Under the pieces are notes generated by a model. It had not been told where the DNA came from and searched no databases. It saw nothing but the letters and a program-made list of their open reading frames with translations. The position numbers and the translations under genes were made by a program. Shown piece by piece: positions 9,046-49,794 of a DNA stretch of 64,000 nt (within the stretch, counting starts at the first letter, position 1; every line of letters begins with the position of its first letter). Source of the stretch: Gammaproteobacteria bacterium (lineage in GTDB: Bacteria; Pseudomonadota; Gammaproteobacteria; Pseudomonadales; Azotimanducaceae); the NCBI GenBank assembly GCA_009840305.1, contig VXNY01000008.1:1-64000 (forward strand), in the 5' to 3' direction.

Positions 9046-9226
9046 AATAGTTTTCCTACAGTAGGGGGAGGGAAGCGACACAGGACCAATTCCGACTAAT
9101 CAGATTGTGAAGGTCTCTTTCGGTTGCTAGTTGTTGAATTCAATCGACACGGTTCGCGAAGACAACTCAGTTAAGAATTACCGCTAGCATTTTACAGCCA
9201 GCGGAGCAGTGCATCTCGAAGGTCAA

Positions 9227-10606: not shown

Positions 10607-10609
10607 AAC

Positions 10610-13971: not shown

Positions 13972-14682
13972 ATGTACTTGAAACTTTTGCTAATCGGCAC
14001 TCTAGGATTACTCGCTAACAGTATGAGCGCGCAAAACCTATCTGGGACCTACGAATTTCCGGAGCCATACGGGTTGGAAGGGGGTACATACATAGTCCAG
14101 CTCAACAAAGATGAGGAAGGAAATTACTCAGTGAGTCTGACGATTTCAGAAATCGATTACAAAGGCAAGAATGTCATGGTTAGCGAGAATCGGTTCACCT
14201 TTGAGATTGAACCTCCACCGCCACTCGGAACAGATATTCAGATAACTCAGTTTTGGAAAATTCAAATCGCAGATGGCGAAGCGAACTTGTCTATAGATTA
14301 TGAAATTGGTGGTGAAAGTGAGTCAATCTCTGTTAAAGGTAGGCTTGTTTTGAACCTTGAGGGCACGTATGAATTTCCACCGCCGAAAGGTTTACCAGAA
14401 GATACAATTAGTGTTCAACTTATGAGAGACGAAGAGAACAATATTGCTGTTACTGTTACTGTCGGGGATGACACAATCAAGGCAAACAATATTGTAGTCG
14501 GTGAGGACCAGTTTTCTTTCGATACCGAAGTTGATACTCCAATTGGAAACATGAGTCAAACATTTAAGATCAAAGTATCAGATACTGACGCTACACTTTC
14601 AATAGTCGTCGACGTTGATGGACAGAGCGAATTGATGACACTCAAGGGGATGCTCATCGACGAGAAGACCGACTCAGAGTAG
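13972..14682 (+). CDS. secreted two-repeat beta protein (SGTYEFPPP family), copy 1
   Basis: A 236-residue protein with a signal peptide (MYLKLLLIGTLGLLANSMSAQ) and two tandem repeats of about 105 residues. Both repeats begin (L)SGTYEFPxPxGL or EGTYEFPPPKGL, continue with V-Q-L-x-(K/R)-D-E-E-x-N, a beta-rich core, a DQFSFDTEVDTP-type strand, and end with a MTLKG strand. The repeats are rich in alternating hydrophobic residues and acidic loops, consistent with small beta barrels or sandwiches. It is closely related to the gene at 16419 and more distantly to that at 46384. No family is recognised. It lies beside a secreted metallopeptidase gene. Confidence 0.65.
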   Translation: MYLKLLLIGTLGLLANSMSAQNLSGTYEFPEPYGLEGGTYIVQLNKDEEGNYSVSLTISEIDYKGKNVMVSENRFTFEIEPPPPLGTDIQITQFWKIQIADGEANLSIDYEIGGESESISVKGRLVLNLEGTYEFPPPKGLPEDTISVQLMRDEENNIAVTVTVGDDTIKANNIVVGEDQFSFDTEVDTPIGNMSQTFKIKVSDTDATLSIVVDVDGQSELMTLKGMLIDEKTDSE

Positions 14683-16085: not shown

Positions 16086-16418
16086 TCGACAGGTGTAAAA
16101 CCATCGCTCCATGACGAGAGCACGACTCCGTCGAATACTTCTGAAGATTTTTGCACTGTATTTTGGTGAACCAACGTGCATGAATCGAGTGTGCATAAAC
16201 TCAGTAAGAAGAAGTTCGCTACAACGTGTATCATTCCCGTTGTGAAGTGAAGCTACGGCAAGCGAGGGTCGACAACGCTTGCACCAATTCAGAAAGTAGT
16301 GGAAAATCCTTCGCGGAACACCAACACTTTCAAACTTTACCGCGCTCTGAGCCCGAACTTCCATTATGAAATTTACGCGAGTCAAGCAACTCCCACAACC
16401 AAGAGGAACAAGTTAAAT
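16086..16418. other. 333-bp intergenic region without recognised gene
   Basis: Frames crossing this stretch have no family resemblance. An upstream in-frame start at 16299 would add 40 residues that destroy the signal peptide of the next gene, so I treat this as untranslated. Confidence 0.5.
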
Positions 16419-17114
16419 ATGAAACTTATGTTGTTAGTTACGATTCTGTTATTAGCTTTTCTTTCAATTGCTGAAGAGCTTTCGGGGACCTATGAATTTC
16501 CACCGCCCGACGGGTTGGAAGGAGATTCAGCGATTATCCAACTAGACAAAGATGAGGAAGGAAATTATTTATCGCAAGTAACAGTGGGAGAGGAAACCAT
16601 TGAAGGTACAAATATCGTCATAGGTGAGAATCAGTTTTCCTTCGATATAGTAGTCGAGACTCCAGATGGAGATATGTTGCAAGTCTATACAGTTAAACTT
16701 GACGAAGATGAATTCACACTGTCCATACTGTCCGAACTTGGTGACCTCAGCCAATCTATTTCTCTCAAAGGCACGCGACTCAAAGAAATAGAAGGTACTT
16801 ATTCATTTCCACCAGAAGGGGTTCGAGGCGACACTACCACAATCCACCTTGCGAAAGACGATGATAACAAGTTCTCTGTTGTGGTTACAGTTGGAGATGA
16901 GACATTCGAGGCAGAAAATGTCGTAGTCAGCGGGGATCAGTTTTCTTTTGACACAGAAGTGAAGACGCAAGTTGGAGAAATGTCCCAAGCTTGGAAAGTT
17001 GAAGTAGCAGACGATGAAGTCACCTTGTCGGTACTAGCAGATGTTGGTGGTCAAAGTGAATCGATGACACTAAAAGGCAATCGAGTCGACGAGCAAGGTG
17101 AGTCAGCGAACTAG
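16419..17114 (+). CDS. secreted two-repeat beta protein (SGTYEFPPP family), copy 2
   Basis: A 231-residue paralogue of the gene at 13972. The ATG at 16419 gives a clean signal peptide (MKLMLLVTILLLAFLSIAEE); a longer frame begins at 16299 but has no signal-like start. AGAGG lies 12 bases upstream. Two repeats follow: LSGTYEFPPPDGLEGD...IQLDKDEEGNY and EGTYSFPPEGVRGD...IHLAKDDDNKF, each ending in a SLKG or TLKG strand. The second repeat shares DQFSFDTEVKTQ and SESMTLKG with copy 1. The two copies bracket the metallopeptidase gene. Exported to the periplasm or medium; role unknown. Confidence 0.65.
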   Translation: MKLMLLVTILLLAFLSIAEELSGTYEFPPPDGLEGDSAIIQLDKDEEGNYLSQVTVGEETIEGTNIVIGENQFSFDIVVETPDGDMLQVYTVKLDEDEFTLSILSELGDLSQSISLKGTRLKEIEGTYSFPPEGVRGDTTTIHLAKDDDNKFSVVVTVGDETFEAENVVVSGDQFSFDTEVKTQVGEMSQAWKVEVADDEVTLSVLADVGGQSESMTLKGNRVDEQGESAN

Positions 17115-19371: not shown

Positions 19372-20157
19372 TCATCCTTCGTCTTCTATTTCGGTCATGT
19401 CCGTAGTCGATGTCTCCCCGTTTTCTTCTAAAGCACTGACGTTTTCACCGTACTCCGATTCTAGAAAGCGTTCCAATTCAATCGGAAAGATGTGCGTGTG
19501 AAGAATACAGCCGTTTGTATCCACTAGGTATGATCGTGGTAGTCCACGCAATCGGAAAGCTTTGGAAGTAGGCCCGACTAAACCTTGGGCGTTAATCTCT
19601 CCAACGTCAATCCAAGGAAGTTTGTGCTCTTCTAACGACTCTTCCCATTGTTCGTGAGTAATGTCCGTGCAGACAGATACGATTTCAAACTTTTCATCTT
19701 CATACGTAGAGTAAATCTCTTTTAACTTTGGAAATTGGGCGATGCACGGTCCGCAAGCGGTTGCCCAGAAGTCTATAACTACGTAGTCGTTTTCAGCGAG
19801 TACTTCATACAAATTTACTTCGTCACCATCGACGCGAGGAAGTGTGAAGTCGGGAATCTTGTCCTTCGGTCTGAGTTTGCGGTCGCCCGTCATATTTCTA
19901 AAGAATTTTGGTAGTCGGGCAGGTTTTTCTAAGGTTGTCACATCTTTGCAACTCGTCGCTTTAGTTACATTAACCTCCTTATGGTCATCTGTATTTTCTA
20001 AAGATGAATTTGTCAGAGAAACCAAGGTCTCTAAGTCGGACGACATATTTGCGCTCGCGTAAGAATTGGTTGCCGGAGAGGCTTGTCCGCATAACACGAA
20101 CAATAGTGTCAACAGCATCAATGTACTGAATGCGAGCGTTCTTATATTGTTTTTCAA
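19372..20157 (-). CDS. secreted TlpA-like thioredoxin-fold protein
   Basis: A 261-residue protein with a signal peptide (MKNNIRTLAFSTLMLLTLLF..., cleavage near 26) and a TlpA/AhpC-type thioredoxin domain from about 90 to 245. The active site is FWATACGPC; the CGPC pair is kept, but the usual Trp just before the first Cys is Ala. The cis-proline is in RGLPRSYLVD. The acidic tail ends EDEG. The start is TTG at 20157, with AGG about 8 bases upstream, chosen because it yields the complete signal peptide. It is probably a periplasmic disulfide reductase or isomerase; the partner is unknown. Confidence 0.75.
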   Translation of the reverse strand: MKNNIRTLAFSTLMLLTLLFVLCGQASPATNSYASANMSSDLETLVSLTNSSLENTDDHKEVNVTKATSCKDVTTLEKPARLPKFFRNMTGDRKLRPKDKIPDFTLPRVDGDEVNLYEVLAENDYVVIDFWATACGPCIAQFPKLKEIYSTYEDEKFEIVSVCTDITHEQWEESLEEHKLPWIDVGEINAQGLVGPTSKAFRLRGLPRSYLVDTNGCILHTHIFPIELERFLESEYGENVSALEENGETSTTDMTEIEDEG

Positions 20158-20353: not shown

Positions 20354-23300
20354 CTAGTGCTCTTCCTCTTCTAGAGTCCATTTGATGGCGTCGCCGATCG
20401 TATTACCATCCGATAGAGGTGTTATCACTACATCAACCGTTCCTATGTCCAAGTCGAACAGTCCAAGATCGTTCCACCCTGAGTTTGCTTCTTGAGGTTT
20501 AAATTCAATCGTATTTGAGAGTCCCAAGTTTTTGATTTCCAATTGAACGTTGGCTAGCCAAAAGCCCCTTGACATCGAGTAAATTGAACCTAGACCAGGA
20601 CTATGCCTCGAACGGTAAATCTTCCTCTTGATCGCCGGCATGTGAAATTCAAGCTTCCACTTCCCAGGTTTGGGTATATTCGCCGAATAAGTCAACTGTG
20701 TCTGTTCGCCACGCTGGAAATTAATCACGTGAGTGTGTCGATACATCCCATAACTTGTTGCCTCCGAATCCCTGTACCATAGAACTGAATCGAAGACGTC
20801 TTTTTCTAAACTGTCGGCCGCGTCATCTAATTGCAACAAGCCATGGTCCGTCTCAAGTTCAGTGTCGTAGCCTCCAAATAAATATGTGACCCACTTCGGA
20901 AACAGTGGTTTTTTGAGAGCATCTGCGCCACCGATAACTGAGAACCCAGCATCCAAATCATCGACTATGATTGATTCGTGTTCGCGAGGATTCCAATCGA
21001 CTTCTGCGATATAGGGTAAATTCATTGAAGTCGTCGGAATGTCATCGTCATGCTTTGGAATGTTCACACTCAATGGTTGTCGATTGTGAGAAAAGTAGGG
21101 GTGCACCAACACTTCTCTAGGATGATCAGTCGACTGGATTGCAACTTGCAGTGTCGATCGGTTCGGTACTCGTAGAGGCGCTAACTCTTGAAATCCTAAC
21201 TCCCCCTCTTCACCAAAGGAGACCTTCACGAAACCATCGACTGCTTCATCATTACTTATGAAAAAGCTTGACTGGTAAACTGGTTCATCGGAGTCGGGAC
21301 TTTCGAGTCTTTCCAATATAGAACGTTCGACCACAAAACCGGGTACGTCAGCACTATGCAGCCAATTACCCATTAGATCTCTAAAGTCCACACCTGCGCC
21401 CAATGCCGTGTTGTGAAAATCTTCCTCAGTGTAAGTCAAACCACGATATACCGCGATCAAGTCTCTCAAGAAAGAACCGACGTCGTCCTCGTCGACGACC
21501 TCTAGTATCAAGTTTTTCAATGCGTCAACTTTGAGAATTAGGGCATGGTACGAGTTCTTTGCATCTTGTTCAAAATCTAAACTAGAGAGGGGGGTGGTAA
21601 GAGCGTGTTCCCAAACAGAAGGTCGGTTGCTAAAGTGCTCGCGCCAAGCTAGCTGTTCTAGACGTGCTCTGGCACCAAAAGAGCCACCGAACCACACCAC
21701 AGAGTTCAGCATCTCAGACACTCGATTTCCTTCCATTGCCGAGTGGATCGAAAAGTATCCGTCTTTACCGATGACGAGTTCGTTTGCAATCTCACCTACC
21801 AAGTATTCCATGGCTACCGCTCCTGAACCTATTGGTTTTGCTTGATGGCTAACCAAATTGCGGCCTAGGTTGAGGAAAGGATTTGTACCCTCAAAATCGT
21901 TTTCGAAAAAGTCCTGCAACAGTTGTAGAATGAAAGCACTAAGCTTCTCTTCGTCTTCAGTCAGCTCTGGGAGTTGGGAATTGATTGCGTAGTCAAATCG
22001 AGCGATTGATAGACCTGACTCTCTGAACATTTGAATGCCAGGTGGTGAATACACACTTTCCATACTCCAACCACCGCCGTACGTTCTCAATGGGAGGGGA
22101 ACCTCAACGAAGGACAAAGTATCGTAAGGATAACTGAGACCCAAAGCATTCGCTTGGTTTAGTCGTTCCTCAATCCATTCTTTCAGAGCGGGAACGACCG
22201 GATCCAAGATCTTTAAATTTTGGGCGTGTTTCTTGCTGATCAGTAGTTCAAACTTGGTATCTTTAATCACAAGTGTTCGTTGTTCAAAGTTTGATGCGAC
22301 TAAAGCGACTTCTGAGACTGGGTTCTTCGGATTGAATCGATACTGCGTTCTCCGATTTTCTTCCGTGAGAGCACGTGATCCAGGACCTGCGACAATCCAG
22401 TTATTAGGCACAGTTACCTGAAGATCGATATTGAAGAAATCTTGTGGGCGCGTTTCCCCATTGGATTTACCAAATACCGCGCCCGAAGATGGCAACCAAC
22501 TCACGCCTGGTACTAGAGCAACGAAACCGGGATGAAAGATGTACGACTTGGTACCAAATTGTCGTGCCGCTAATGCTTGCGTGAAGTTCATGTCTTTCCA
22601 AGTTAACGAACTATCTAAATACGTAAACATGGGATCGGGGACACCTTTCGCGACCAGTCTTATTTCCGCGCCGGTTGTACCCGTACCGTTCATGGATACT
22701 AAAAGTAAGCCATCTTCGAATTCATAGTCTTGAGTCTGTTCTCCATTGAGCTCAAGAGTGTCGACTGTGTATCCAGGATTGAGTGAAAATAACCATTTGT
22801 CGTCAGATTCGCTAGGGGTAGGCGAAATGCTCAGTTCTAGATCAAGTCGTACTGATCGACCTGGGAAAATTTCGATCAAACCGGTGATTAATTCAATGTT
22901 TGTCTCGGAATGCGTTTGGAACTGTTTGTGAAGTAAAGCCCACTCGTCCACCTGTTTCAGTTCAAGCAATTTGGAATTAGTTAGAGCGTAGACTCCGAAT
23001 ATCGCAATGACAATCGCTGAGCATCCTGTGATAGCAAAAAACTGCTGTTCTTGCAGTTTTGCCTGTCTCGGATACAGTACCGAAGTGAGTCCGAGCAATC
23101 CTATCGTCAACAGGATGACATACAAGCGGTTGATTACGACATCGACATCGAAAAATTGAGGTGCGATCGCAGAGGGTAGGGAATCGACACCGGTATAAGT
23201 TGCTAAAGCCGACGCGAGATAAAAGGGAATTCGACTACTGAAATAGTAATACCCGAGCACCAATACCAACATTATTAGCACGACCAACATTCGATATCGA

Positions 23301-23842
23301 ACTATTACGGCGACTAACATGGTCAGTGCGCCCCAAAAAAGTAGGTTGGGAAGTAAATCCCAAAACAGAAATGCCGCGACACTAACGGGTTCTATTGCCG
23401 AACCGAATCCAAAGTTGAAAGTTTCAGCTATCAGTCCATAACAGCACATGAGAACGATCAAAGTTATTGCCGGAACTGCGAATAACATTACGATTCCGAA
23501 CAATCGACCGGTGAGTAACTCAAGATTCGTCATCGGTCGCACATCGATGGTTTCTCCTATGCGATCTCTTACATCTCGTTGCCGAATGTCAAAAGCAAGA
23601 AAGACGATTCCAAACGTAAAGATCAGTAAGGTCATTCTGCCAATTTGCGATATCGCGAAATGCGGACCCAGCACTCCAGCAGAAGCAGAAAGGTACGATG
23701 CGAACATGTGTGCTAACGACAGAAACAACCACGTAAATGAACCACAAATAACGGTGGCTGCTACCATTACCCAAGTTCGTGCTAACCGTCTACACGATCT
23801 TATTTCTGCACATGCAATTGACCAAAGTCTCGAAACACTCAT
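20354..23842 (-). CDS. ABC-2 permease / degenerate M1 peptidase / golvesin-like fusion, copy 1
   Basis: A 1162-residue membrane protein. Residues 1-290 are an ABC-2 type permease with six or more helices and the conserved FDIRQRDVRDRIGETIDVRPM loop (65-90, two short pieces). Residues about 310-880 resemble an M1 (gluzincin) aminopeptidase, including YGGGWSMESVYSPPG, the equivalent of the M1 substrate loop. Where M1 enzymes have HExxHQWWGHQ this protein reads LNLGRNLVSHQ, so zinc binding should be lost. The last 180 residues, from IIVDDLDAGFSV to DAIKWTLEEEEH, look like a golvesin/xanthan-lyase type beta domain. No ABC ATPase lies nearby. It is transcribed divergently from the thioredoxin-fold gene at 24020. 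Confidence 0.72.
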   Translation of the reverse strand: MSVSRLWSIACAEIRSCRRLARTWVMVAATVICGSFTWLFLSLAHMFASYLSASAGVLGPHFAISQIGRMTLLIFTFGIVFLAFDIRQRDVRDRIGETIDVRPMTNLELLTGRLFGIVMLFAVPAITLIVLMCCYGLIAETFNFGFGSAIEPVSVAAFLFWDLLPNLLFWGALTMLVAVIVRYRMLVVLIMLVLVLGYYYFSSRIPFYLASALATYTGVDSLPSAIAPQFFDVDVVINRLYVILLTIGLLGLTSVLYPRQAKLQEQQFFAITGCSAIVIAIFGVYALTNSKLLELKQVDEWALLHKQFQTHSETNIELITGLIEIFPGRSVRLDLELSISPTPSESDDKWLFSLNPGYTVDTLELNGEQTQDYEFEDGLLLVSMNGTGTTGAEIRLVAKGVPDPMFTYLDSSLTWKDMNFTQALAARQFGTKSYIFHPGFVALVPGVSWLPSSGAVFGKSNGETRPQDFFNIDLQVTVPNNWIVAGPGSRALTEENRRTQYRFNPKNPVSEVALVASNFEQRTLVIKDTKFELLISKKHAQNLKILDPVVPALKEWIEERLNQANALGLSYPYDTLSFVEVPLPLRTYGGGWSMESVYSPPGIQMFRESGLSIARFDYAINSQLPELTEDEEKLSAFILQLLQDFFENDFEGTNPFLNLGRNLVSHQAKPIGSGAVAMEYLVGEIANELVIGKDGYFSIHSAMEGNRVSEMLNSVVWFGGSFGARARLEQLAWREHFSNRPSVWEHALTTPLSSLDFEQDAKNSYHALILKVDALKNLILEVVDEDDVGSFLRDLIAVYRGLTYTEEDFHNTALGAGVDFRDLMGNWLHSADVPGFVVERSILERLESPDSDEPVYQSSFFISNDEAVDGFVKVSFGEEGELGFQELAPLRVPNRSTLQVAIQSTDHPREVLVHPYFSHNRQPLSVNIPKHDDDIPTTSMNLPYIAEVDWNPREHESIIVDDLDAGFSVIGGADALKKPLFPKWVTYLFGGYDTELETDHGLLQLDDAADSLEKDVFDSVLWYRDSEATSYGMYRHTHVINFQRGEQTQLTYSANIPKPGKWKLEFHMPAIKRKIYRSRHSPGLGSIYSMSRGFWLANVQLEIKNLGLSNTIEFKPQEANSGWNDLGLFDLDIGTVDVVITPLSDGNTIGDAIKWTLEEEEH

Positions 23843-24019
23843 GTATTTACTTCCTTATACCACAGTTTCGCCCACCTTTACACTATTCGTCGTCCCAACG
23901 ACTTGAACGACCAAATAATCGTGGTTCGAGGGTTGCCTAGTTTCGGTGAAGACGAATTTTATTAGTCTTATGTGATCTCGAAATCGAGCATGACATTGTG
24001 ATAAACTGAGGCAAGATTC

Positions 24020-25063
24020 GTGCCAACTGAACTCTTTACAGAATACAATAAAAAGAGAGGAACAACTTGGAATTGGGAATTGAATCGATTATTACAGTGT
24101 GCTGTTGTCGCACTAACGTTCATGTCTGTACCAACACTAGGTTCAGAGCCAATTGAAATACCGTCTGCAGTTGATTATTTCGAGGGAACAATTGAGGACG
24201 CTATTGAGAACGCAAAAGAAGAAGATCAGCGTCTCCTTGTGTATTTTTACACTCTTGATTGTGCTTCCTGCGAGTACATGTACGAAGAGTTTCAAGGCAT
24301 ATATGTTGGGTACTTTTTGAACGACCGATTTATTAACTTTAAGGTTGATGCCAACGACGAAGAATCCAATGGACCTGACACCGCTTCAAGATTTAGTGTA
24401 GATTCTTATCCGACCTTGTTGATTCTCGACCACGATGGTGAGGTAATGCACCGAATCACGAGAGCGATGGAAGGAAGTGTCCTCAAGAATACTATTCGCT
24501 GGGTGACTGGCGAAACCAAATATCCAATGGCCGACGATGACGCTAAGTACGAGGGTGGCGAACGCGATCCGGTATTTGTTCAGCAATATTTACTGGATGC
24601 GCGGACTGTATTACCGAAGAATTTAGACGTAAATGACTTACATATGAAAGCTTGGGGGGAGGCTCACGACAAATACACAGCAATAACCCAAGAATATCTG
24701 GCTAGCCGGGGATCGGAAGACTTAATAAATGAACGCGATTTTTTGATTGTCAAAGCCTATAGTAAATTTTTGGATGACCCGGGTATCAAACTAGTACTGG
24801 ATCACTTTGATGCTTATGTAATAGTCACCTCGATGGAACAGGTAAGTGCAACTGTACTCGCTGTCGCGTCGGATACTGCTGTTGTCAAGGCTCTCGAAGG
24901 AGATGAGACGTATCTTGATGTTATTGACGCGTTAGAAGAAGAGCCTCTGAAAAAAGCTGCGGATTGGCAACGAAGTATCCATCCAGCAAGTTGGTATCTA
25001 CCGGAAAATCAGCATGAACGACTGAAAGAGATTTTTGATGTCATGAGAGGAGAGGCTGACTAA
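24020..25063 (+). CDS. secreted thioredoxin-fold protein (CASC), copy 1
   Basis: A 347-residue protein. Residues about 50-165 form a thioredoxin fold of the DUF255/thioredoxin_7 kind: FEGTIEDAIENAKEEDQRLL, VYFYTLDCASC, then RFINFKVDANDEES and the cis-proline in SYPTLLILD. The CxxC pair (CASC) is intact. The remainder is helical, TPR-like. The start is uncertain: GTG 24020 gives the longest product, while TTG 24080 (MNRLLQCAVVALTFMSVPTLGS) would leave a normal signal peptide. The gene is divergent from the permease fusion 177 bp away, and its stop overlaps the stop of the convergent TlpA gene. It is a paralogue of the gene at 30734, which has the same divergent context. Confidence 0.68.
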   Translation: MPTELFTEYNKKRGTTWNWELNRLLQCAVVALTFMSVPTLGSEPIEIPSAVDYFEGTIEDAIENAKEEDQRLLVYFYTLDCASCEYMYEEFQGIYVGYFLNDRFINFKVDANDEESNGPDTASRFSVDSYPTLLILDHDGEVMHRITRAMEGSVLKNTIRWVTGETKYPMADDDAKYEGGERDPVFVQQYLLDARTVLPKNLDVNDLHMKAWGEAHDKYTAITQEYLASRGSEDLINERDFLIVKAYSKFLDDPGIKLVLDHFDAYVIVTSMEQVSATVLAVASDTAVVKALEGDETYLDVIDALEEEPLKKAADWQRSIHPASWYLPENQHERLKEIFDVMRGEAD

Positions 25064-26766
25064 TCTTCTTCGTCTTGACGGTTTGTTTCACCAAAGTGAT
25101 CCACCAGAAGACTCTTCAGTTCATCTGGTGTAACATCTCTTTCCAAAATCTCCCCCTTGGAATCTAGCAGGAATTCTGTAGGAATCGACTGAATTCCGTA
25201 TGCAACCGGTGTATCAGCTAAAAAGCCATGCAAATCACCGACGTTTATCCCTGATACATCATGTTTTTCGGACCCTTTCTTCCAATCGTCATATGAATCG
25301 TCAATGGATACAAACACGATTTCGAATCCCTTGTCTCGATATTCGGCATGCAATTTATTTAATTTGGGTAACTTGTCAATACAGGGTACACACCACGATG
25401 CCCAAAAATTTACCAGTACTACTTCATTACTAGCAAGAATGTCATACAGGGCAACTTCATCGCCCTCCAAATTCGCAAGGGTGAAATCGGGTGCCGATTG
25501 ACCTTCGACGATAGACTCGGCATTTGTTGCCTTATTGAGCTGCTTCTCTAAAGCGTCTCTCTGCGGTACAACTCGCCGCGAAAAGACGTCTTCTTTAAGT
25601 ACGCTAGCAAGTGTATACCAGTTTTCCAATTTACGACTGTATTCCATCCAAGCAAGGGCACCAATTTCCATGGCGAGTAGTGACGCCATAGGATCTTCTA
25701 AATTTTGTGCTATTGATGTCAGAGCAGTAAATTCGATTTTTTGCAATTCTGTATATACATCGTACGGCTCCCTAAAAGGCTGTTCGTCTGTGCCAGCGGT
25801 CTCGGTATCTTCCTCTTCAGTATGGGAATGGGTTGTGTTTGGAGGTGCCGCATTCTCGATCGCATGGGCGTACTCTTCCATTTTGGCAAGATATTCCTCG
25901 CTGTTTTGCCAGCTCTCAATCACTGTAGCGTGCAGACTATTCTTATTTTGAGAATTGGCAAGTAAAGGGGACGCAAAGTTCCCGGGAGCAAATGAGCTAG
26001 AGGTCGCGCTCGGCGAAATCTCTATTTGAGCACCTGGCTCCACCACGACGCTGACGAGTCCAAAATACGTATAGTCAAAAGTGCTGACTCCAATATCGAC
26101 TAGAAACGGTTCGCCGGCTATTCCTTCGATAAAGAACTTACCATCGTCCAGTAGCAGTTCTGTTACTGACAAAAGACTAACAGACTTCGGATTCTCTGAA
26201 TGAATTTCGATTTCGGCGAGTGCTAATGTGAGATTCTGGTCACTGATCGAACTAAGATCGCCGGTGATCTTAAATTTGTCGCTGTCGTCTCCAAGCATTC
26301 TTGAAACCCCTGATAGAAGCAATCGGTCTTCAAGGTCGTCGGACTCAAAGTCCAACAATACAAAAGTCGGATTTGTCTCTGAATCTAGAAGGGCTGTGTG
26401 CAGTCTCATTGGCTCTTCGTTTCCGCGGGACACGAATATGTCAATTGGGGTCGGCCACTGTTTCACGTTTCCCTCTAAGACAATCTTGTCATCTGTGAAC
26501 GTACCCGAAGCTATGGTGACTTCTTCGGTCGGTCCCTCGTTGCGTGTAATGACGACGGATATCTCCTGTTGGTTTTCTGCTTTGAGTTCTTCAGATGATT
26601 GATCTGAACCTGAATCATCATTTGCGTCCACGTCGGTAACGTTTGCTCCTGACGACACAAAGATCCTTTCCCCTGTTATGGTAAATTTCGTGGATTCGGT
26701 GTTGAATCCACATCCAACAAGTATCACACACGCGACCAGCGTCGTTATTCCAAATAGAATTTTCAT
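25060..26766 (-). CDS. TlpA-like thioredoxin lipoprotein with DUF4369-like N-terminal region
   Basis: A 568-residue lipoprotein, paralogue of the gene at 7291. MKILFGITTLVACVILVGC gives a lipobox with cysteine 19. The mature start TKFTITGERIFV matches KNSFIITGEIVYV of the paralogue. A long beta-rich middle region is followed by a linker and a C-terminal thioredoxin domain with FWASWCVPC (cysteines about 459 and 462) and cis-proline SIPTEFLLD. The ATG at 26766 is preferred over the ATG two codons earlier because GAGGG then sits 6 bases upstream. It lies between the two permease-fusion units, convergent with the plus-strand thioredoxin gene and overlapping its stop. Probably a periplasmic thiol reductase anchored in a membrane. 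Confidence 0.82.
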   Translation of the reverse strand: MKILFGITTLVACVILVGCGFNTESTKFTITGERIFVSSGANVTDVDANDDSGSDQSSEELKAENQQEISVVITRNEGPTEEVTIASGTFTDDKIVLEGNVKQWPTPIDIFVSRGNEEPMRLHTALLDSETNPTFVLLDFESDDLEDRLLLSGVSRMLGDDSDKFKITGDLSSISDQNLTLALAEIEIHSENPKSVSLLSVTELLLDDGKFFIEGIAGEPFLVDIGVSTFDYTYFGLVSVVVEPGAQIEISPSATSSSFAPGNFASPLLANSQNKNSLHATVIESWQNSEEYLAKMEEYAHAIENAAPPNTTHSHTEEEDTETAGTDEQPFREPYDVYTELQKIEFTALTSIAQNLEDPMASLLAMEIGALAWMEYSRKLENWYTLASVLKEDVFSRRVVPQRDALEKQLNKATNAESIVEGQSAPDFTLANLEGDEVALYDILASNEVVLVNFWASWCVPCIDKLPKLNKLHAEYRDKGFEIVFVSIDDSYDDWKKGSEKHDVSGINVGDLHGFLADTPVAYGIQSIPTEFLLDSKGEILERDVTPDELKSLLVDHFGETNRQDEED

Positions 26767-26950
26767 TTCCATCCCTCACATCTCCATCATTGATACAGAT
26801 CGCTCATATCGACAGCGATGTCGAAGTTTACTGATTGTGTTTACCAAAGTCAAAAATTTTTGTGTGTGAGACTCACTGGATTCAGTGTCAATCGATGATC
26901 CCACGCGCAAGAAATAAGAATGAGCGCGTAAGATCTTTCGTCTCAAGTGA

Positions 26951-29900
26951 TCATTCATCGGGAACCTTTGTCCACCGGATCGCATCAGCAAACATCAGAC
27001 CAGGAGACGCCGTACCCAAAACTTGCACGGTAACCGTTCCAGCCTTCAAATTTAACTCTTCGACAAAGTTCCAACCCTTCGTGACTTCTTTGGAATTCGT
27101 GTCGAATGATAGATTCCAAACATTTTCAGCATCGTGGACTCTTAGTTTATAGGTGAGTCTTGAAAAATCATTCGCTTCGTTCCATTCGACTGGTAGATGG
27201 TATTCCAGAGTCCAAGTCGTTGAAATTGGAAGCTCCGCAACAAAACTAACCCTGCCAGGTGGTTTTAACTTTGGAACCCATGCAATCGCGGTTGTTTTTC
27301 GATGTCGACCGTACGATCCAGCCCCGAGTCTTCGGTGCCAAACCTCTTGGGGCATGTTAAAAAACGCATCTGTATACACTGCGAGCCCTTTATCAACTTC
27401 AAAAATTCTTAAGTCACGCCTTGAAAACCAGTTCTTTGGAGTTACAGAAATGTAAAGTTTAGATCCTGCATCTGGTTGCGAGATTGAGAAATCTTCATCT
27501 AAATCATCGACGATAATTTGCTCATTTGTGATTGGAAACCAGTCTGAATCTTCCAAGAATGGACGAGGAGCAAAGAGCCTTAGATCTTCAATGTTTGAAT
27601 CAGTGCGGATCACAAAGGGCTTGCGGTCCAATGATAGCCCCGGAACAACTTGAATTTGTCGCAACTCGTAGGGAGTGGTAATGTTTATTCTTGTAGATGA
27701 GTTTGCGTCGATTTGGATACCAGCAGTTTCGATCCAGTGTGTCCAATAGAGGTCCGCTGCCGAAGACTGTGTCGGATATGTCAATTGAATTACTCCGTCA
27801 ACTGGTTGTACATTACGAACAACAACTGTAGTTTGAAACTGCGGAGATCCTGTTTCGTCATCTGCCAACTGCGCAATTGTCAAAGGCGACACGACGTATC
27901 CTGGTAAGTCTGACCCTGTTAACCAACTGGTTAGACAAGGTTCGATTTGAATACCATTGAGCTTGGCGGACTCGACTAGATCCGCAAGCGAATAGGTGTT
28001 TCCAGTAAATTGATTACGAAACTCGGTTAACCAAGAGTTCAATCGCTCTTCATCATTTATCAATTTCAATCCGCGAGCAATTTTCCTTGCTTTCAACAGT
28101 ATGGGTTCAAGCTTCTTCTGACGGTTGTCGGAATTTAGTAGATCGTACAATCCTTGTCGCTCGATGGAGTTCCATATCGCCGTTCGAGAACCAAAATATT
28201 GTTCTTGTAAACGAGCTCTCGAGACAGAGCTATACTTCGAAAACCAAGTAATATCTGAGGGCATTAATAGAGATAGGTCTGCGACATGAAGTGTTGAATA
28301 AATCGAAAACGGATCAATCGACGGTGCTATTAGAGCCAATACGACTTCATCCAGAACCTCAGCAAACTCGCCGGTAGCTGAGGTGTGGTGCGACCAGTAT
28401 CTCTCCGCAATACCTAAAAAAGGATTGTCGGTCCCTAGTGCACGATTAAAGTACGATATAAAGACTAAAAAGTGAAGGTCACGCTGAGCTTCTTCAAAAC
28501 CAAAAGACTGTGTAGGAATTTGTTCAGAATACAACCGTTCGATATTTACCTTCGGGAAACCACGTTCTTTCAGGAGTCCAATTTCCGGTAATGAACTAAG
28601 AGACTTCATGCGCAATCCCCCACCTACGGTTCTTAAACGATCAGGTACTTCAACCAAATTTAGAGTATTGGTAGGTAGACTTAATTCGAAATCTGTAAAT
28701 TGCAATAGAAGGAGTTCGACATGCTTCTGGAATGTTGTATGCAATTCCTCTTGCCAAAATTGCAAATTTTGCGTGTGTTTTTTGTGCAAATGAAGATTGA
28801 AGGTCATCCCTCCAGCGACCAAAGTAGCACGTTCGAACTGCGATGCGAACAAATTGATCTCGGATGTGGCATACTCCGGATTGACCTGATACAAGGAACT
28901 CTTGTCTGATTCACTCTTAACTCTTGTTCCAGCTGCTACCAGCTGCCAGGTCTTCGGCGTTAGCTCAATCGTTAGGTCTACGTTGAAAAAGTCATTTCCT
29001 CGTCGGACTTTTTTCGACGAGTTTCTAAGCGATCCAGCGGCGGGGTACCAATGCACACCCGCCATCAATGCTACATATCCCTTGTCGTATACAGACCCGT
29101 CCTTCCCCAATAACTCGACAGCTTGTGTTGGTGCTTTGGGATCGGACAAATAATCTATCGCAGAGTTGATATAGCCGAATCGTGGGTCAGGCACACCTCG
29201 GGCAACGATGCGTAGTCGGTGGATTACGTCTTCGTTTGAACTATCTCCTCTCTCTACCTTCAGCAAACCGTTTCGAAAAGAGTGTTTTGCATGCTGATCA
29301 TCGAGCATCAAGTCTTGAATTTTCATTGAAGGATTGAAGGTAAAAGTGAGCTTTTCAGTAGCTTCGGCTTTCAACAACAATTCCAAATCGACGAACAGTG
29401 AAGTCTTAGGGTTGATGTGCACGGAGCCACTGATGTCGAGTATGTCAATGCTCCCTTCTGAAGTTTGCGACTCGTGCACTTCACGCCACTTGGCAGGTTC
29501 CACGTAGTAGTGTTGTACGACTCCCCAAGCTACAGAACCGTACAGAACGCCACTTAGTGCTAAGAGTCCCGAGCCAAGAGCATTTTTGAAAGTCACTGAC
29601 AAACCGTCAATCTGTCGGAACAATGTAGCAAATACAAGCAACGCTCCAGCAAAAGCGAGACTTGCTAATCGTGCACCCATCGTCGCTAGAGAGGCAAACT
29701 GAGGTGAAATCTCGGATATAAAGAGTGAGTCGTTGGAAGAGGCTGACAGAATGGCTAGAAACGAGTAGGGAGATTCTGACACGACGATTGACCATCCTGT
29801 CATTAGTGCGAAACCCAAAATTAACACACCTATTCGAAATCGTACGACGCTGGTTAAGAGCACCAATACTGAGCACCAGACAACAAAGGAGACTGGAGCG

Positions 29901-30415
29901 TCGAGCAGAAGAAGATTCAACATAGAATGCATTTGGAAAGGTTCGGAAAATTGCCATTCCGTCCAATCGCAAGTCAGTCCTATTCCGTGCAATGCTCCAA
30001 CGATTAAGCATGTGGCGATCCATAACAAAACTGACACGCTAAGGATCCTTCCCACAAGATACTCAATACTTGTTACTGGTTTCGATCTCAATACTTCCTC
30101 AATTCGATCTCTAGCATTCCGTTGCGAAGCGTCGAGCAACAGTACAAGAGTACCAAGTTGAAATACCAAGACCACATAGGGAGAAATGTTGCCTAGCAGG
30201 AAACGAGGAGTCGCGATACCGAACGAAGGAGAGTAAATCGCGCCACCTTGTAGGTAGATGCACGAAAATAAGTACCCAACGAATGCGAACAGAAAAAGAC
30301 TTGCGCACAAGATCCAAAATCGCATCCTACGACGAGTGGTTCGTAACTCGGATTTACATACGGCCAGAACTCTGTGTGTTGAATCGAGGAGTGATCTCGG
30401 CTTGCTTATAAACAT
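26951..30415 (-). CDS. ABC-2 permease / degenerate M1 peptidase / golvesin-like fusion, copy 2
   Basis: A 1154-residue paralogue of the protein encoded at 20354 with the same three parts. The N-terminal 290 residues are an ABC-2 permease with DASQRNARDRIEEVLRSKPV in the first loop. The M1-like part runs from about 310 to 870 and contains VGGGLRMKSLSSLPEIG. The C-terminal golvesin-like domain runs from IIVDDLDEDFSI to FADAIRWTKVPDE. The zinc-site position reads LGIAERYWSHH in place of HExxHQWWGHQ, again without the metal ligands. The two copies differ widely in sequence, so the duplication is old. ATG start; no ABC ATPase nearby. The next gene upstream is the divergent thioredoxin-fold gene at 30734. 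Confidence 0.72.
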   Translation of the reverse strand: MFISKPRSLLDSTHRVLAVCKSELRTTRRRMRFWILCASLFLFAFVGYLFSCIYLQGGAIYSPSFGIATPRFLLGNISPYVVLVFQLGTLVLLLDASQRNARDRIEEVLRSKPVTSIEYLVGRILSVSVLLWIATCLIVGALHGIGLTCDWTEWQFSEPFQMHSMLNLLLLDAPVSFVVWCSVLVLLTSVVRFRIGVLILGFALMTGWSIVVSESPYSFLAILSASSNDSLFISEISPQFASLATMGARLASLAFAGALLVFATLFRQIDGLSVTFKNALGSGLLALSGVLYGSVAWGVVQHYYVEPAKWREVHESQTSEGSIDILDISGSVHINPKTSLFVDLELLLKAEATEKLTFTFNPSMKIQDLMLDDQHAKHSFRNGLLKVERGDSSNEDVIHRLRIVARGVPDPRFGYINSAIDYLSDPKAPTQAVELLGKDGSVYDKGYVALMAGVHWYPAAGSLRNSSKKVRRGNDFFNVDLTIELTPKTWQLVAAGTRVKSESDKSSLYQVNPEYATSEINLFASQFERATLVAGGMTFNLHLHKKHTQNLQFWQEELHTTFQKHVELLLLQFTDFELSLPTNTLNLVEVPDRLRTVGGGLRMKSLSSLPEIGLLKERGFPKVNIERLYSEQIPTQSFGFEEAQRDLHFLVFISYFNRALGTDNPFLGIAERYWSHHTSATGEFAEVLDEVVLALIAPSIDPFSIYSTLHVADLSLLMPSDITWFSKYSSVSRARLQEQYFGSRTAIWNSIERQGLYDLLNSDNRQKKLEPILLKARKIARGLKLINDEERLNSWLTEFRNQFTGNTYSLADLVESAKLNGIQIEPCLTSWLTGSDLPGYVVSPLTIAQLADDETGSPQFQTTVVVRNVQPVDGVIQLTYPTQSSAADLYWTHWIETAGIQIDANSSTRINITTPYELRQIQVVPGLSLDRKPFVIRTDSNIEDLRLFAPRPFLEDSDWFPITNEQIIVDDLDEDFSISQPDAGSKLYISVTPKNWFSRRDLRIFEVDKGLAVYTDAFFNMPQEVWHRRLGAGSYGRHRKTTAIAWVPKLKPPGRVSFVAELPISTTWTLEYHLPVEWNEANDFSRLTYKLRVHDAENVWNLSFDTNSKEVTKGWNFVEELNLKAGTVTVQVLGTASPGLMFADAIRWTKVPDE

Positions 30416-30733
30416 TTCTTTCTTAACCGTGGGCTACTTGTACAAGGCAATATCTTCTCAATTTCATCGCTTCAATTTTAGGGGCACCAATTAAGAACAA
30501 GTTGTTACGGTCGGTTGAAGTTGGGACCGAAAAACAGGGAAAAGGCTGATGTAGCTCTCAGATTTTTACACTATCTTATTGTGCGTTTTTAGCTGTAGAT
30601 CAAGAGTCCACATGTTGGCAAATCGATGTAGTTTGCTTACTGCCGAAAAAGATACAATCCAATTAATCTCCATCACGTGAATCTAATACTCTTTGCGATC
30701 ACCAGCTTTCTTACATTCGGAGCGTTTTAACTC
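30416..30733. other. divergent intergenic region of unit 2
   Basis: 318 bp between the second permease fusion and its divergent thioredoxin-fold gene. It should hold both promoters. I see no gene and no strong repeat; a short CGGTC/GACCG pair occurs near 30510-30530. Confidence 0.5.
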
Positions 30734-32125
30734 ATGAACTCGTCAAAGGTTCAAACAAATTCTTTCTTGATAGCTATTTCGTCGTTGATATTGATAGCGT
30801 GTTCGAATTTACATGGACAACAGGAAGAAAACGAACCCGAAAATACACCAACAGATACCACGAAAACCTCTAGCGAAGGGGTAGAGTTCTTCCACGGCAC
30901 GTTTGAAGACGCTCTTGCGTACGCCGCGCAAACCGAAAAGTTGGTCTTCGTTTATGCTTACGATTACAGCGGGCGTGGTGCAAACATCGTAATGGAGGAC
31001 GCTGTGTTTCCATTACCGAACATAGGCAAGTACATCAACGAGCGATTTGTCAGCGTTAAGTTCGATCTAAATGACGAAGAATTGAATGGATCTGCGATCG
31101 CGACACGGTATAAATTTAGTATTCCTCCAACGTTTCTAATTCTGGATTCTGAGGGTCGTGAAGTAGGCCGCGCGCAGGACAGGTATGGTGCGTTACCAAA
31201 CCAATTCTTGTCAATGATCAGTCGCGTGCTTGGAGAATCCTCATCCACGATTGACGAGATGCAAGCTAAATACGACTCTGGTGAACGTTCTTCAGAGTTT
31301 GTTCAAGAGTTTTTGATGCAAGCAATTGTCGAACGAGCCCTTCTAAATATCGATTCTGAAGAGAACACTCAGGTCTGGTTCGAAGAATCTGCGAAGTACA
31401 GGAATATTGCAAGAGGGTATTTTGCAAGTAAATCTCATTCAGAACTAATCAATGAAATCGATGCTCATTTAGTCATGTACTATTGGGATGGAATGCCACG
31501 TGGGGATGCACTCGTCGAATTTGTAATGGACCATTTCGAAGAATTTCTTGCAGTGTCGTCCGTATCCTCATTAACGCAATTCACACTGTTCGCAACCTGG
31601 TCTGCGGCAGGTGCTGCTGCCCAAGCTGGCGACGAAAATTACTCGGAGTACATTGATGCCCTCGAGGATTATCCACTAAACAAAGCCGTGGAATATGTAC
31701 GTCATCGTTTTCCTTCTAGTAATTTTCTCCCAGATCGGATGAAAGCAGATTTCAAACCGATATTTCTTGCCGGGAAACAGGATTGGGACGGATATTACGA
31801 CCTTTACAAGAAAAAGTTAGAAGAAGGGGCAGACGACACCCTTGGTACAGAATTGATATGGGCCATGATTCAGTTAAGCAGTTCCGACAACGTGAAACAT
31901 CACGATTTAGCAATCGAATTAGGGCAGCGCGGATTCGAAAAAGATAAGAACGATCCCTATACCGCTGCTACCTACATCCAGTACTTAGTCATATTGGAGA
32001 AACCGGATGAAGCCAAGCGAGTCGCGGAGGAATATCGTTTGAGACTATCGGAATCGGAAGCTGATGAAGCAAATCTTACGATATTCAATGAAAGCACCGA
32101 AATGTTTCTGAATGAGAGTAACTAG
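30734..32125 (+). CDS. thioredoxin-fold lipoprotein without CxxC, copy 2
   Basis: A 463-residue paralogue of the gene at 24020. The signal sequence ends in a lipobox (SLILIAC, cysteine 23). The thioredoxin-like region (about 50-165) keeps the frame of the paralogue: FHGTFEDALAYAAQTEKLVF, then RFVSVKFDLNDEELNG and SIPPTFLILD with the cis-proline. Where copy 1 has TLDCASC, this protein has YDYSGRGAN, so the redox cysteines are gone. The C-terminal 120 residues are helical and TPR-like (LAIELGQRGFEKDKNDPYT). It is divergent from permease fusion copy 2. A redox-inactive binding or chaperone role is the reasonable inference. Confidence 0.68.
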   Translation: MNSSKVQTNSFLIAISSLILIACSNLHGQQEENEPENTPTDTTKTSSEGVEFFHGTFEDALAYAAQTEKLVFVYAYDYSGRGANIVMEDAVFPLPNIGKYINERFVSVKFDLNDEELNGSAIATRYKFSIPPTFLILDSEGREVGRAQDRYGALPNQFLSMISRVLGESSSTIDEMQAKYDSGERSSEFVQEFLMQAIVERALLNIDSEENTQVWFEESAKYRNIARGYFASKSHSELINEIDAHLVMYYWDGMPRGDALVEFVMDHFEEFLAVSSVSSLTQFTLFATWSAAGAAAQAGDENYSEYIDALEDYPLNKAVEYVRHRFPSSNFLPDRMKADFKPIFLAGKQDWDGYYDLYKKKLEEGADDTLGTELIWAMIQLSSSDNVKHHDLAIELGQRGFEKDKNDPYTAATYIQYLVILEKPDEAKRVAEEYRLRLSESEADEANLTIFNESTEMFLNESN

Positions 32126-35627: not shown

Positions 35628-36665
35628 ATGCTTCGAGGGATGTCGTCCATACAAATTAAATCGGTACTACGAAGATTTCTACTACCACTATTCTTTGCCG
35701 GATTTATCGGCTCTACCGTATCTGCTAAACTAAATTCGGTTCAAATCACAGATCAAACCCTAAAAGCTGTCGATTCCTGTCTAAAGTGGAAAGTCATAGG
35801 TACATGTACGTGGCTGCACTGTGATCTTTTCGGTTGTCGGGTTCGAGTTTCTCTGAAGATTGGTCATTATCGACCTGATCTCGTGGTTTCAGTCTATCCG
35901 ACAATAGAGTCTCATCCGTGGAATGAGGTCAAGACGGTAGTCAAAACCGCGTTTAGTCAAATCAAACACACACTACCAGAGAGTATTCGGAACGTTATAG
36001 AAGGGAATGCCTTGGAGCCTGGACACAGCTCGAAACATATTTCGAGAAATCTGCGATTATTTGAAAGCGATGTTATCGGACACCCACTGCTAGATTTACC
36101 AGCAAGTTACGCAGATTACTTTTGTACTTCCCACACTATTCCACTTATTCCGTATTACAGTTCTTTACTAGATATCCTCGCGTGGAGAAATCCAGAATTC
36201 GAGAACCTCAACTTAATAAATTCAATTCCAGGTAGACGCGAAATTGGTCGTTGGCCACTGTTCACTTGGGGTTCAGTTTATCCTCGATGTGGTTGGACCA
36301 ATCAGCCAAGCCCACCAAAAGCTGCCGCCGTCATTGCACAACGTGCCGGCGATATCGCGGTCAATGGCGGATTATTGCGTGTAAGAATTCCGATAGGTAG
36401 GTCTGCCGGTCATCAGAAGCGCTGGGGACCTCCTGCGCTCAGAGAAACGAACGGAAGCACTGGAACATGGCAAATGATTCATCCCCAAAAGGAGAGTTCG
36501 TGTGAAGCGTTCGGTACGAACGATCTCTGGTCAATAACAGGTTGGGGTGGTGGTAAAGTAGATAGGAAAAACGCTTATCTCTGGGTGCTGTGGCGTCCGT
36601 ATAAGTGTTGCGCCAAGAGGGGACAAGTTTTCCTCGGTTCTGATGACGTCCACGGGTACCCATGA
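35628..36665 (+). CDS. integrating conjugative element protein, TraU-like (TIGR03756 / PFL_4710 type)
   Basis: A 345-residue exported protein with a signal peptide (FLLPLFFAGFIGSTVSA). The mature start, with DSCLKWKVIGTCTWLHC and GCRVRVSLKIGHYRPDLVVS, is typical of TraU-like proteins of GI-type ICEs, where many cysteines form disulfides. In F-type transfer systems TraU takes part in mating-pair formation and DNA transfer. The start may be ATG 35628 or ATG 35640 (MSSIQIKS); the former is kept. The stop overlaps the next start by 4 bases. The gene order matches the PFL_4710-PFL_4711-TraG order known from ICEclc-like elements. Confidence 0.8.
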   Translation: MLRGMSSIQIKSVLRRFLLPLFFAGFIGSTVSAKLNSVQITDQTLKAVDSCLKWKVIGTCTWLHCDLFGCRVRVSLKIGHYRPDLVVSVYPTIESHPWNEVKTVVKTAFSQIKHTLPESIRNVIEGNALEPGHSSKHISRNLRLFESDVIGHPLLDLPASYADYFCTSHTIPLIPYYSSLLDILAWRNPEFENLNLINSIPGRREIGRWPLFTWGSVYPRCGWTNQPSPPKAAAVIAQRAGDIAVNGGLLRVRIPIGRSAGHQKRWGPPALRETNGSTGTWQMIHPQKESSCEAFGTNDLWSITGWGGGKVDRKNAYLWVLWRPYKCCAKRGQVFLGSDDVHGYP

Positions 36666-38002: not shown

Positions 38003-38351
38003 ACGACGCGCATTTACGAAATTAGGATTACTGATTGCGTTATTTGTTGGCGTAGCAGTATCAATTCTGTTGGTTACAGTTGATGGTACCGCGGTGGACT
38101 CTTGGCCGAATTGGTTGGTAGTGAACCACTGGTTAACGACCCTTGTCAGAGTTGGGCTCTTCGTTGTAGTTTTCGTTGTTTTTTACTCGGTACGAAAACG
38201 AGCAATTCACAACTCGGAACAAACCGGAAGTGCTGCAAAAAAAGCGCGGCTACATGCTCGCGTTCGACAACTCTTACTTTGGTTCTTCATTGTTGAATTA
38301 CTGTTTGGACAAGCATTGCTGCCTCGTGTTTTGGAGGTGTTCTTTTCGTGA
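37977..38351 (+). CDS. small membrane protein of the ICE transfer operon
   Basis: A 124-residue protein with three membrane helices (about 17-36, 52-74 and 98-116) and a basic cytoplasmic loop (VRKRAIHN). A protein of this size and topology lies between the PFL_4711 and TraG genes in related elements. The start is TTG 37977 or GTG 37986 (MSKVLKRRAF); both overlap the upstream gene. The stop overlaps the TraG start by 4 bases. Confidence 0.6.
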   Translation: MTDVSKVLKRRAFTKLGLLIALFVGVAVSILLVTVDGTAVDSWPNWLVVNHWLTTLVRVGLFVVVFVVFYSVRKRAIHNSEQTGSAAKKARLHARVRQLLLWFFIVELLFGQALLPRVLEVFFS

Positions 38352-49365: not shown

Positions 49366-49794
49366 GCTAAAGTTCTCTTTGAAATAAACGGGAAGTGCGA
49401 ACAGATGTGTTCATACTAGACTGTAGATTTTAGTCTGTGTTCACGGTACTCTTTCACGGTCGAAGTTACACTCTTACAAACTTTGTACGCTCCCTAGACT
49501 AAGTAGAAACGTATTCGGCTGAATTCGATTTCAAATCCTTGGATTGAGCGTGTGTTCTACTGGAAGTAAACAGGACAGAACCATTCTTAGATTTCCTGCA
49601 AAGTTCTAACGAATATTTAGTGAATTGATGCCCCACAAACAAGTTTTCTCTGCTCACCGAGCTCGATTGAAGAGTCTATGAGTACTGCCGATAGACTGTT
49701 GGTTCCAACTTCGGTGCATAAAGCGTCGACTTACTTGAACCGGAACAAAATTTGCTTTGATCATCTTACAATTTGCGTTTACGGAGCGAAATTG
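49366..49794. other. divergent intergenic region
   Basis: About 430 bp between divergent genes. The plus-strand frame of the next gene is open from ATG 49678, so the part after 49678 might be translated. Nothing else was recognised. Confidence 0.4.

Follow-up and report, generated by a model that had tools for sequence, protein, structure and literature searches.

ABC-2 exporters of the NosFY type are driven by a separate ATP-binding cassette (ABC) ATPase, and the sharing of one ATPase is a property of the group II energy-coupling factor (ECF) transporters. Among importers, one ATPase serves several membrane partners in the case of the shared ATPase MsmK (PMC4519317) and in that of the ECF transporters (PMC10368641). 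The stretch analysed here (the window) comprises positions 1 to 64,000, all 64,000 nucleotides, of the forward strand of contig VXNY01000008.1 (our contig C28) in assembly GCA_009840305.1, from a gammaproteobacterium of the Azotimanducaceae. It carries two genes, FUS1 and FUS2, each encoding an ABC-2-like permease fused to an M1-like pseudo-peptidase and a golvesin-like C-terminus. On balance we favour, by a modest degree, the explanation that these proteins are export permeases, members of an enlarged set that shares one ATPase, with inactive peptidases as their binding domains.

Like the ABC-2 exporters with a separate ATPase, the fusions possess an N-terminal amphipathic helix and a cytoplasmic segment between helices 2 and 3, and one fusion copy of the genome lies beside an ABC ATPase gene. 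Unlike them, they bear a large pseudo-M1 and golvesin-like ectodomain, and 25 of the 26 copies of the genome stand outside the ATPase operon described below. The difference from MsmK and the ECF importers lies in the ABC-2-like proteins with giant ectodomains and in an operon encoding a resistance-nodulation-division (RND) pump. The EcfS and EcfT Pfam families are absent from the matches of the fusions and operon members scanned, and ECF serves as an analogy only; the best reading is that the system would work like the shared-ATPase and ECF systems and not be a member of them. Among the product names in use at NCBI, 'ABC transporter permease/M1 family aminopeptidase' would denote the domain order of our fusions, which suggests that this order is not in itself new.

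The genome of the window (2.62 Mb in 35 contigs) contains 26 fusion copies, found as 29 match stretches of which three are pieces of others; one copy has an internal stop. With about 3.5 kb each, they occupy approximately 3.5% of its DNA and are in part clustered: a run of six occupies C27:170.8-192.7 kb, and a further three lie at C29:53-64 kb. The fusion profile matches 57 of the 206 genomes of the taxonomic family, in 10 of its 37 genera. In a sample of 369 genomes drawn from the class, with two candidates scored per genome, it matches 2, one of them being the genome of the window. In genus g1, match counts per genome range from 2-5 to at least 12-21; with no more than 19 candidates scored per genome, they are lower bounds where copies are many (the genome of the window scored 19 for its true 26). 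The corresponding range in genus g321 is 1 to 26, a count that takes in split pieces. Three FUS1 orthologues, 78-79% identical, come from metagenome-assembled genomes labelled OMG group, Gammaproteobacteria and Pseudomonadales; names of this type stem from sponge studies. A plasmid tblastn search with the operon fusion of locus L121 gave no match.

The two fusions of the window and the parts of the first are the following.

20354..23842, minus strand: Fusion 1 (FUS1), orphan ABC-2-like permease + M1-like pseudo-peptidase + golvesin-like C-terminus; open reading frame (ORF), 1162 aa
22922..23842, minus strand: FUS1 membrane part, residues 1-307, N-terminal amphipathic helix and 7 long helices (predicted helices, inferred topology)
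23522..23593, minus strand: putative ATPase-coupling loop of FUS1, residues 84-107, helices 2-3 (column conservation)
21023..22921, minus strand: FUS1 M1-peptidase-like ectodomain, residues about 308-940 with approximate borders, without HExxH (Foldseek)
20357..21022, minus strand: FUS1 golvesin-like C-terminal region, residues about 941-1162 (PF25275 in paralogues)
26951..30415, minus strand: Fusion 2 (FUS2), second orphan fusion, of another clade than FUS1; ORF, 1154 aa

The AlphaFold2 model of FUS1, built from 25 paralogues of the same genome (mean pLDDT 82.9, pTM 0.80), displays an N-terminal amphipathic helix and six long helices, with two short ones interposed between helices 2 and 3; a helix of 45 residues then leads to a beta, a helical and another beta part. 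The number of helices would place the ectodomain in the periplasm. The fold of the ectodomain is that of the M1 aminopeptidases: in a Foldseek search of the PDB the best match is 5dll (E 3.5e-16), TM-scores lie at 0.3-0.5, and the 50 matches listed are all M1-type enzymes, either aminopeptidases or zinc metallopeptidases. Their HExxH motif is missing from the M1 site of all 63 fusions examined, which were drawn from the fetched loci with the operon copies among them and measure 1040 aa or more; the protein of L125 has an off-site HEARH near residue 300. The dead peptidase is therefore not a decay of the window copies alone. The dead fold is likely a peptide- or protein-binding module. Sequence models detect the same parts faintly. 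The golvesin-like family PF25275 is reached by 18 of 25 paralogues at E <= 1 (best 1.3e-9) and is the sole Pfam match of FUS1 (E 0.045, below cut-off); ABC2_membrane_2 is reached by nine of 25 at E <= 1 (best 7.1e-5); an ABC-2 membrane model touches FUS2 (PF12679, E 0.083, below cut-off) and not FUS1; and the Pfam M1 model is reached by one of 25 (E 0.12). The NCBIfam models gave no match to FUS1 or FUS2 at E <= 1, and the best E value in a PDB sequence search with the fusion profile was 0.97. The reading of the fusions as permease, dead M1-like ectodomain and golvesin-like end, first made in a preliminary description of the locus, is upheld.

The fusions are under purifying selection. The ratio of nonsynonymous to synonymous substitution rates (dN/dS) is 0.10-0.20 for FUS1 (four orthologue pairs, synonymous sites being near saturation for genome G002), 0.26 for FUS2 (one pair), 0.20-0.22 for the operon fusion (three of four pairs computable) and 0.02-0.04 for the operon ATPase. 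When five ectodomain segments are compared in the non-operon copies, conservation is lowest (0.369) in the helical part, residues 611-835, as would be expected if the ligands differ.

The ATPase in question belongs to an operon of the same genome, in the order ABC ATPase (L010 4474-5472), fusion (L010 5512-9090), membrane-fusion adaptor and RND pump; another fusion copy (L010 823-4392) abuts this ATPase on the opposite side. Pump (ACR_tran, E 2.4e-194) and adaptor (HlyD_3, E 9.3e-12) give the operon, which lies outside the window, these two components of a tripartite RND efflux system. The order is the same in 17 of the 18 genomes of genus g1 (G000 and G002-G017 were read, and G001 ends at a contig edge) and recurs in other genera (G445, G468, G522, G584, G568, G425, G571, G574, G577); because of this spread, the operon form is probably the founder. 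In G578 and G580 the ATPase and fusion are on different contigs from the RND genes, and the G369 member has an adaptor and two pumps, with no ATPase match within the fetched stretch. The ORF picker keeps the longer of overlapping frames and can hide a neighbour, as it did with the ATPases of L140 and L146.

Beyond g1 the operon continues with a second RND gene, whose product, where read to its end at about 1600 aa, terminates in an ABC ATPase domain (ACR_tran + ABC_tran). Such RND::ABC pumps were observed at L138:5085-9902 (G000:C27:555085-559902) and also at L140-L143, L145, L146, L148, L149 and L152-L168; the one of the genome of the window (L138) is unlinked to its operon. In all 18 genomes of g1 the second-best ATPase match falls inside an open frame of 1595-1628 aa, and the RND-borne domain has Walker A and LSGGM in all 16 of the 18 that were read. 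Each of the 18 also has a single match that is 60-100% identical to the operon ATPase, and no further match exceeds 41%; the genome of the window therefore has 26 fusions for one close ATPase plus the RND-borne domain. The preliminary description had stated that no ABC ATPase lies near. This is correct for the window contig, where none of the genome's 41 ABC_tran matches falls and neither fusion has an adjacent ABC ATPase gene, and incorrect for the family, since the operon copy and its counterparts adjoin one.

If the orphans used this ATPase, what would they dock with? Within the membrane part of the genome's 25 non-operon copies, conservation is highest in the segment 84-107 (mean column value 0.566 vs 0.424 for the membrane part), which according to the model would be the putative ATPase-coupling segment. 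Its level is reached by 7 of 283 blocks of 24 residues in the membrane part, all overlapping it, and by 66 of 1138 in the whole protein. The copy with the internal stop (C27:245238) is absent from the alignment A1 (25 of 26 rows), and its longer open piece was placed in the tree discussed below.

The rate of evolution of the ATPase provides a second signal, its intervals being obtained by site resampling and understating the uncertainty because pairs share branches. In genus g1, the divergence of the ATPase relative to the first pump (RND1) is 0.47 [0.30-0.67] and 0.49 [0.34-0.64] in two many-copy groups (six and three genomes), and 1.38 [1.05-1.86] in the few-copy group (five genomes). Relative to the unlinked LolC the corresponding values are 0.18 [0.12-0.24], 0.20 [0.14-0.27] and 0.43 [0.33-0.58], and RND1/LolC is flat at 0.30-0.34 across the three groups. 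By these two clocks the ATPase evolves 2-4 times slower in the many-copy lineages of g1 than in the few-copy ones.

Several observations weigh against a shared motor. The very divergent copies L013_12186 and L023 show weak loop similarity. The adaptor relative to LolC is, if anything, higher in the many-copy groups (0.66 and 0.72 vs 0.51), and adding G011 (five matches) to the second many-copy group raises its ATPase/RND1 value to 0.65, or 0.93 by maximum-likelihood tree length. Few-copy groups outside g1 stand at 0.91 (g7), 0.97 (g321) and 1.20, so that part of the g1 contrast comes from its high few-copy value. In the separately expanded genus g321, from which six of 16 genomes (G572, G575, G579, G581, G585, G586) were left out because ATPase and RND1 are incomplete, the full-length ratio of 0.84 [0.63-1.06] vs 0.97 [0.76-1.21] shows no clear difference; when restricted to the first 220 columns, a boundary that we set only afterwards, it is 0.56 [0.40-0.76] vs 0.83 [0.61-1.09] with overlapping intervals, and the replication is weak. 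The rates of the RND-borne ABC domain are of no help because its internal control shifts too, and a highly expressed ATPase could produce the same signal. Finally, FUS1 and FUS2 of G009 (L036) and FUS2 of G013 (L034) are split into several ORFs, which indicates that some orphans are dispensable and that the locus is turning over, orphan copies being lost as well as gained. Taken together, loop conservation, dN/dS and rate ratios give moderate support to a shared motor.

The model we propose combines these elements. FUS1 and FUS2 would be orphans from a family of ABC-2-type membrane proteins that has expanded in this lineage, each of them composed of a seven-helix membrane part, a cytoplasmic coupling loop and a periplasmic dead M1 fold with a golvesin-like module. 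The founding form would act in the operon together with the ABC ATPase, the membrane-fusion adaptor and the RND pump, the operon being followed in other genera by the second pump that ends in its own ATPase domain. The use of ATP at the permease would be coupled to the handing of a substrate to the adaptor/RND conduit, export being the presumed direction. In the extra copies, the conserved loop would be the docking site for the single close ATPase and possibly for the RND-borne domain as well, and one motor would then serve about 26 permeases whose ectodomains, and presumably ligands, differ. The thioredoxin-fold proteins encoded beside FUS1 and FUS2 would be local accessory or chaperone-like factors and not a constant partner.

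These neighbours, and the thiol-disulfide lipoprotein genes that accompany them, are as follows.

24020..25063, plus strand: TRX1, secreted thioredoxin-fold protein with active-site CASC kept; 347 aa; PF00085 E 2.5e-6, over cut-off
30734..32125, plus strand: TRX2, lipoprotein-like, thioredoxin fold without CxxC + helical-repeat domain; 463 aa; PF03190 E 0.004, below cut-off
25060..26772, minus strand: TlpA/ResA-type thiol-disulfide lipoprotein; 570 aa; PF00578 E 1.4e-18
19372..20157, minus strand: second TlpA/ResA-type gene, downstream of FUS1, flanking the set; 261 aa; PF00578 E 3.6e-14

The ORF check found the five genes of the preliminary description (the two fusions, TRX1, TRX2 and the 570-aa TlpA-type gene) where it had placed them, and its secreted thioredoxin-fold neighbour is confirmed. 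FUS1 and FUS2 are 27% identical across nearly their whole length (E 6.7e-119) and TRX1 and TRX2 34% over residues 48-346 (E 3.2e-43), which means that the mirrored layout is not due to chance. Other genomes of the genus show the same divergent arrangement at the orthologous locus, for FUS1/TRX1 in G005, G008, G009 and G013 and for FUS2/TRX2 in G002; that part of the claim of an arrangement kept after duplication is retained, and the duplication itself is not. In the fusion tree (63 rows, quick method, midpoint root, ORFs below 1040 aa left out), FUS1 falls in a 14-row set including ATPase-linked copies of G003 and G007, and FUS2 in a separate nine-row clade with five copies of the same genome that lack a thioredoxin-fold neighbour, one of which (L013_12186) is a long branch. 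Forcing the seven intact locus copies, a group defined by location and named after the tree had been seen, into one clade costs 486 log-likelihood units (approximately unbiased test, p-AU 8.9e-7). The two fusions are not sisters, and the duplication of a unit is rejected.

The thioredoxin-fold genes, of which this genome has three, occupy 43 places in the taxonomic family; 42 were counted, the broken copy G008:C25:68860 being under the 250-aa limit. Ten of the 42 are within four genes of a fusion and 32 are not. Nine of the ten linked genes are in six genomes (the genome of the window, G002, G005, G008, G009 and G013), the tenth being in G014; a flanking decarboxylase gene is common to the six (shorter ORFs only in G002 and G013), and the nine therefore represent one locus. 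Of the other 32, seven lie near TlpA-type genes, some stretches being cut by contig ends. At the aligned position, the active-site CxxC is kept in two of the ten linked copies vs 30 of the 32 others (naive Fisher 1.5e-5); of the unlinked copies two are without it, one situated at this locus in G008 and the other, L103, being its relative in G002, and the CVVC of L033_9666 sits in the signal sequence and was not counted. As a constant fusion partner, the thioredoxin-fold gene is rejected: it stands beside two of the 26 fusions of this genome, and the pairing of the two families as a system, as put forward earlier, falls with it. These proteins are best read as local helpers of the locus, mostly without redox chemistry.

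Could they be periplasmic chaperone-like helpers for the adjacent ectodomain, recruited from redox-active relatives? Like E. coli YbbN, DsbH and DsbD-gamma, they contain a thioredoxin domain, accompanied in YbbN as well by a helical repeat; unlike these, they are lipoprotein-like or secreted, and TRX2 has no CxxC. The TRX2 model (pLDDT 87.3) consists of a thioredoxin domain and a helical repeat, and its best Foldseek match is YbbN (3qou), followed by DsbH-like entries. Within the TRX1 group the first cysteine is lost in G008 and the second in G005, G009 and G013, and in the TRX2 group both or one are lost; the lost residues differ, and CxxC has therefore disappeared more than once. Against this stand the weakness of the YbbN match (E 2.9e-4, query TM 0.19), the missing last part of the helical repeat in TRX1-type proteins, and dN/dS values (0.31-0.40 for TRX1, 0.27-0.40 for the thioredoxin-fold proteins overall) that suggest loose constraint. 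We consider such a chaperone-like role possible, if doubtful.

The orphans might also have ceased to transport, with the pseudo-peptidase now serving for binding (as receptor, decoy or inhibitor) and the membrane part as a mere anchor. The location of all but one copy of this genome outside the operon set (one of them being the tandem neighbour of the ATPase gene), the missing HExxH and the high variability of the helical ectodomain segment agree with this view. An anchor would have no need for the putative coupling loop to be the best-conserved membrane segment of the non-operon copies, and the slowing of the ATPase in the many-copy g1 lineages also argues against it; we regard it as unlikely. 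Very improbable, and largely refuted, is the dedicated redox unit of the preliminary description, a duplicated divergent periplasmic thiol system of fusion, thioredoxin-fold and TlpA proteins: the mirrored layout kept in relatives and the restriction of TRX2-query matches to fusion genomes (18 of the 206 family genomes, all among the 57 with a fusion and none of the 149 without; naive Fisher 1e-11, a test that counts related genomes) speak for it, but its fusions are not sisters, its two families are rarely neighbours, an ATPase partner exists elsewhere, and eight of the ten linked thioredoxin-fold genes have no active-site CxxC.

The rest of the window contributes a few observations of its own. 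Both listed TlpA/ResA-type genes encode an AhpC-TSA/Redoxin domain (PF00578), and the 570-aa protein, with 31 matching stretches in the genome, represents a further expanded family; TlpA/ResA-type genes are several in the window (7291-9081, 19372-20157, 25060-26772, 49678-50571 and 50587-51261), the first of them beside adjoining DUF1501 and DUF1800 genes (9227-12373). Near the fusion locus, genes with TraU and TraG_N domains (35628-36665 and 38348-39898) appear, from their domains, to be part or remnant of a conjugative element. Two proteins (13972-14682 and 16299-17114) contain repeated 'GTYEFPPP'-like segments, noticed by eye in the translations, and a 1537-aa helicase/endonuclease-like protein (52390-57003) has DUF4011, AAA and REase_MTES_1575 domains. 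An anti-phage defence system of the PADLOC type was considered and rejected, no family being matched at E <= 0.01 by the five window proteins; the operon ATPase matches 17 ATPase-type families (best mad3, 3.4e-24), which we take as generic ATPase likeness.

In conclusion, the ingredients assembled here, ABC-2 permeases, M1 folds, RND operons and shared ATPases, are known separately, and the open-licence literature, in the portions searched, contains no description of their combination, of its expansion or of the RND::ABC chimera; nor did any title retrieved deal with an ABC permease/M1 fusion or with golvesin. We tentatively see in them a modular envelope transport in which one ABC ATPase, together with an RND-attached ATPase domain, would drive about two dozen interchangeable permeases with inactivated-M1 binding ectodomains. 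Sharing of the ECF kind would then occur in an ABC-2/RND exporter, one that has expanded in two or more genera within a single gammaproteobacterial family. The RND::ABC chimera would physically join two normally separate energy sources. It is striking that a 2.6 Mb genome, which has one close ATPase, should devote so large a part of its DNA to 26 copies of a giant membrane protein. If the sharing is true, such orphan permeases should be annotated with their shared motor, the 26 variants would offer a natural set for mapping permease-ATPase specificity, and exporters of the ABC-2 type can be modular as the ECF importers are.

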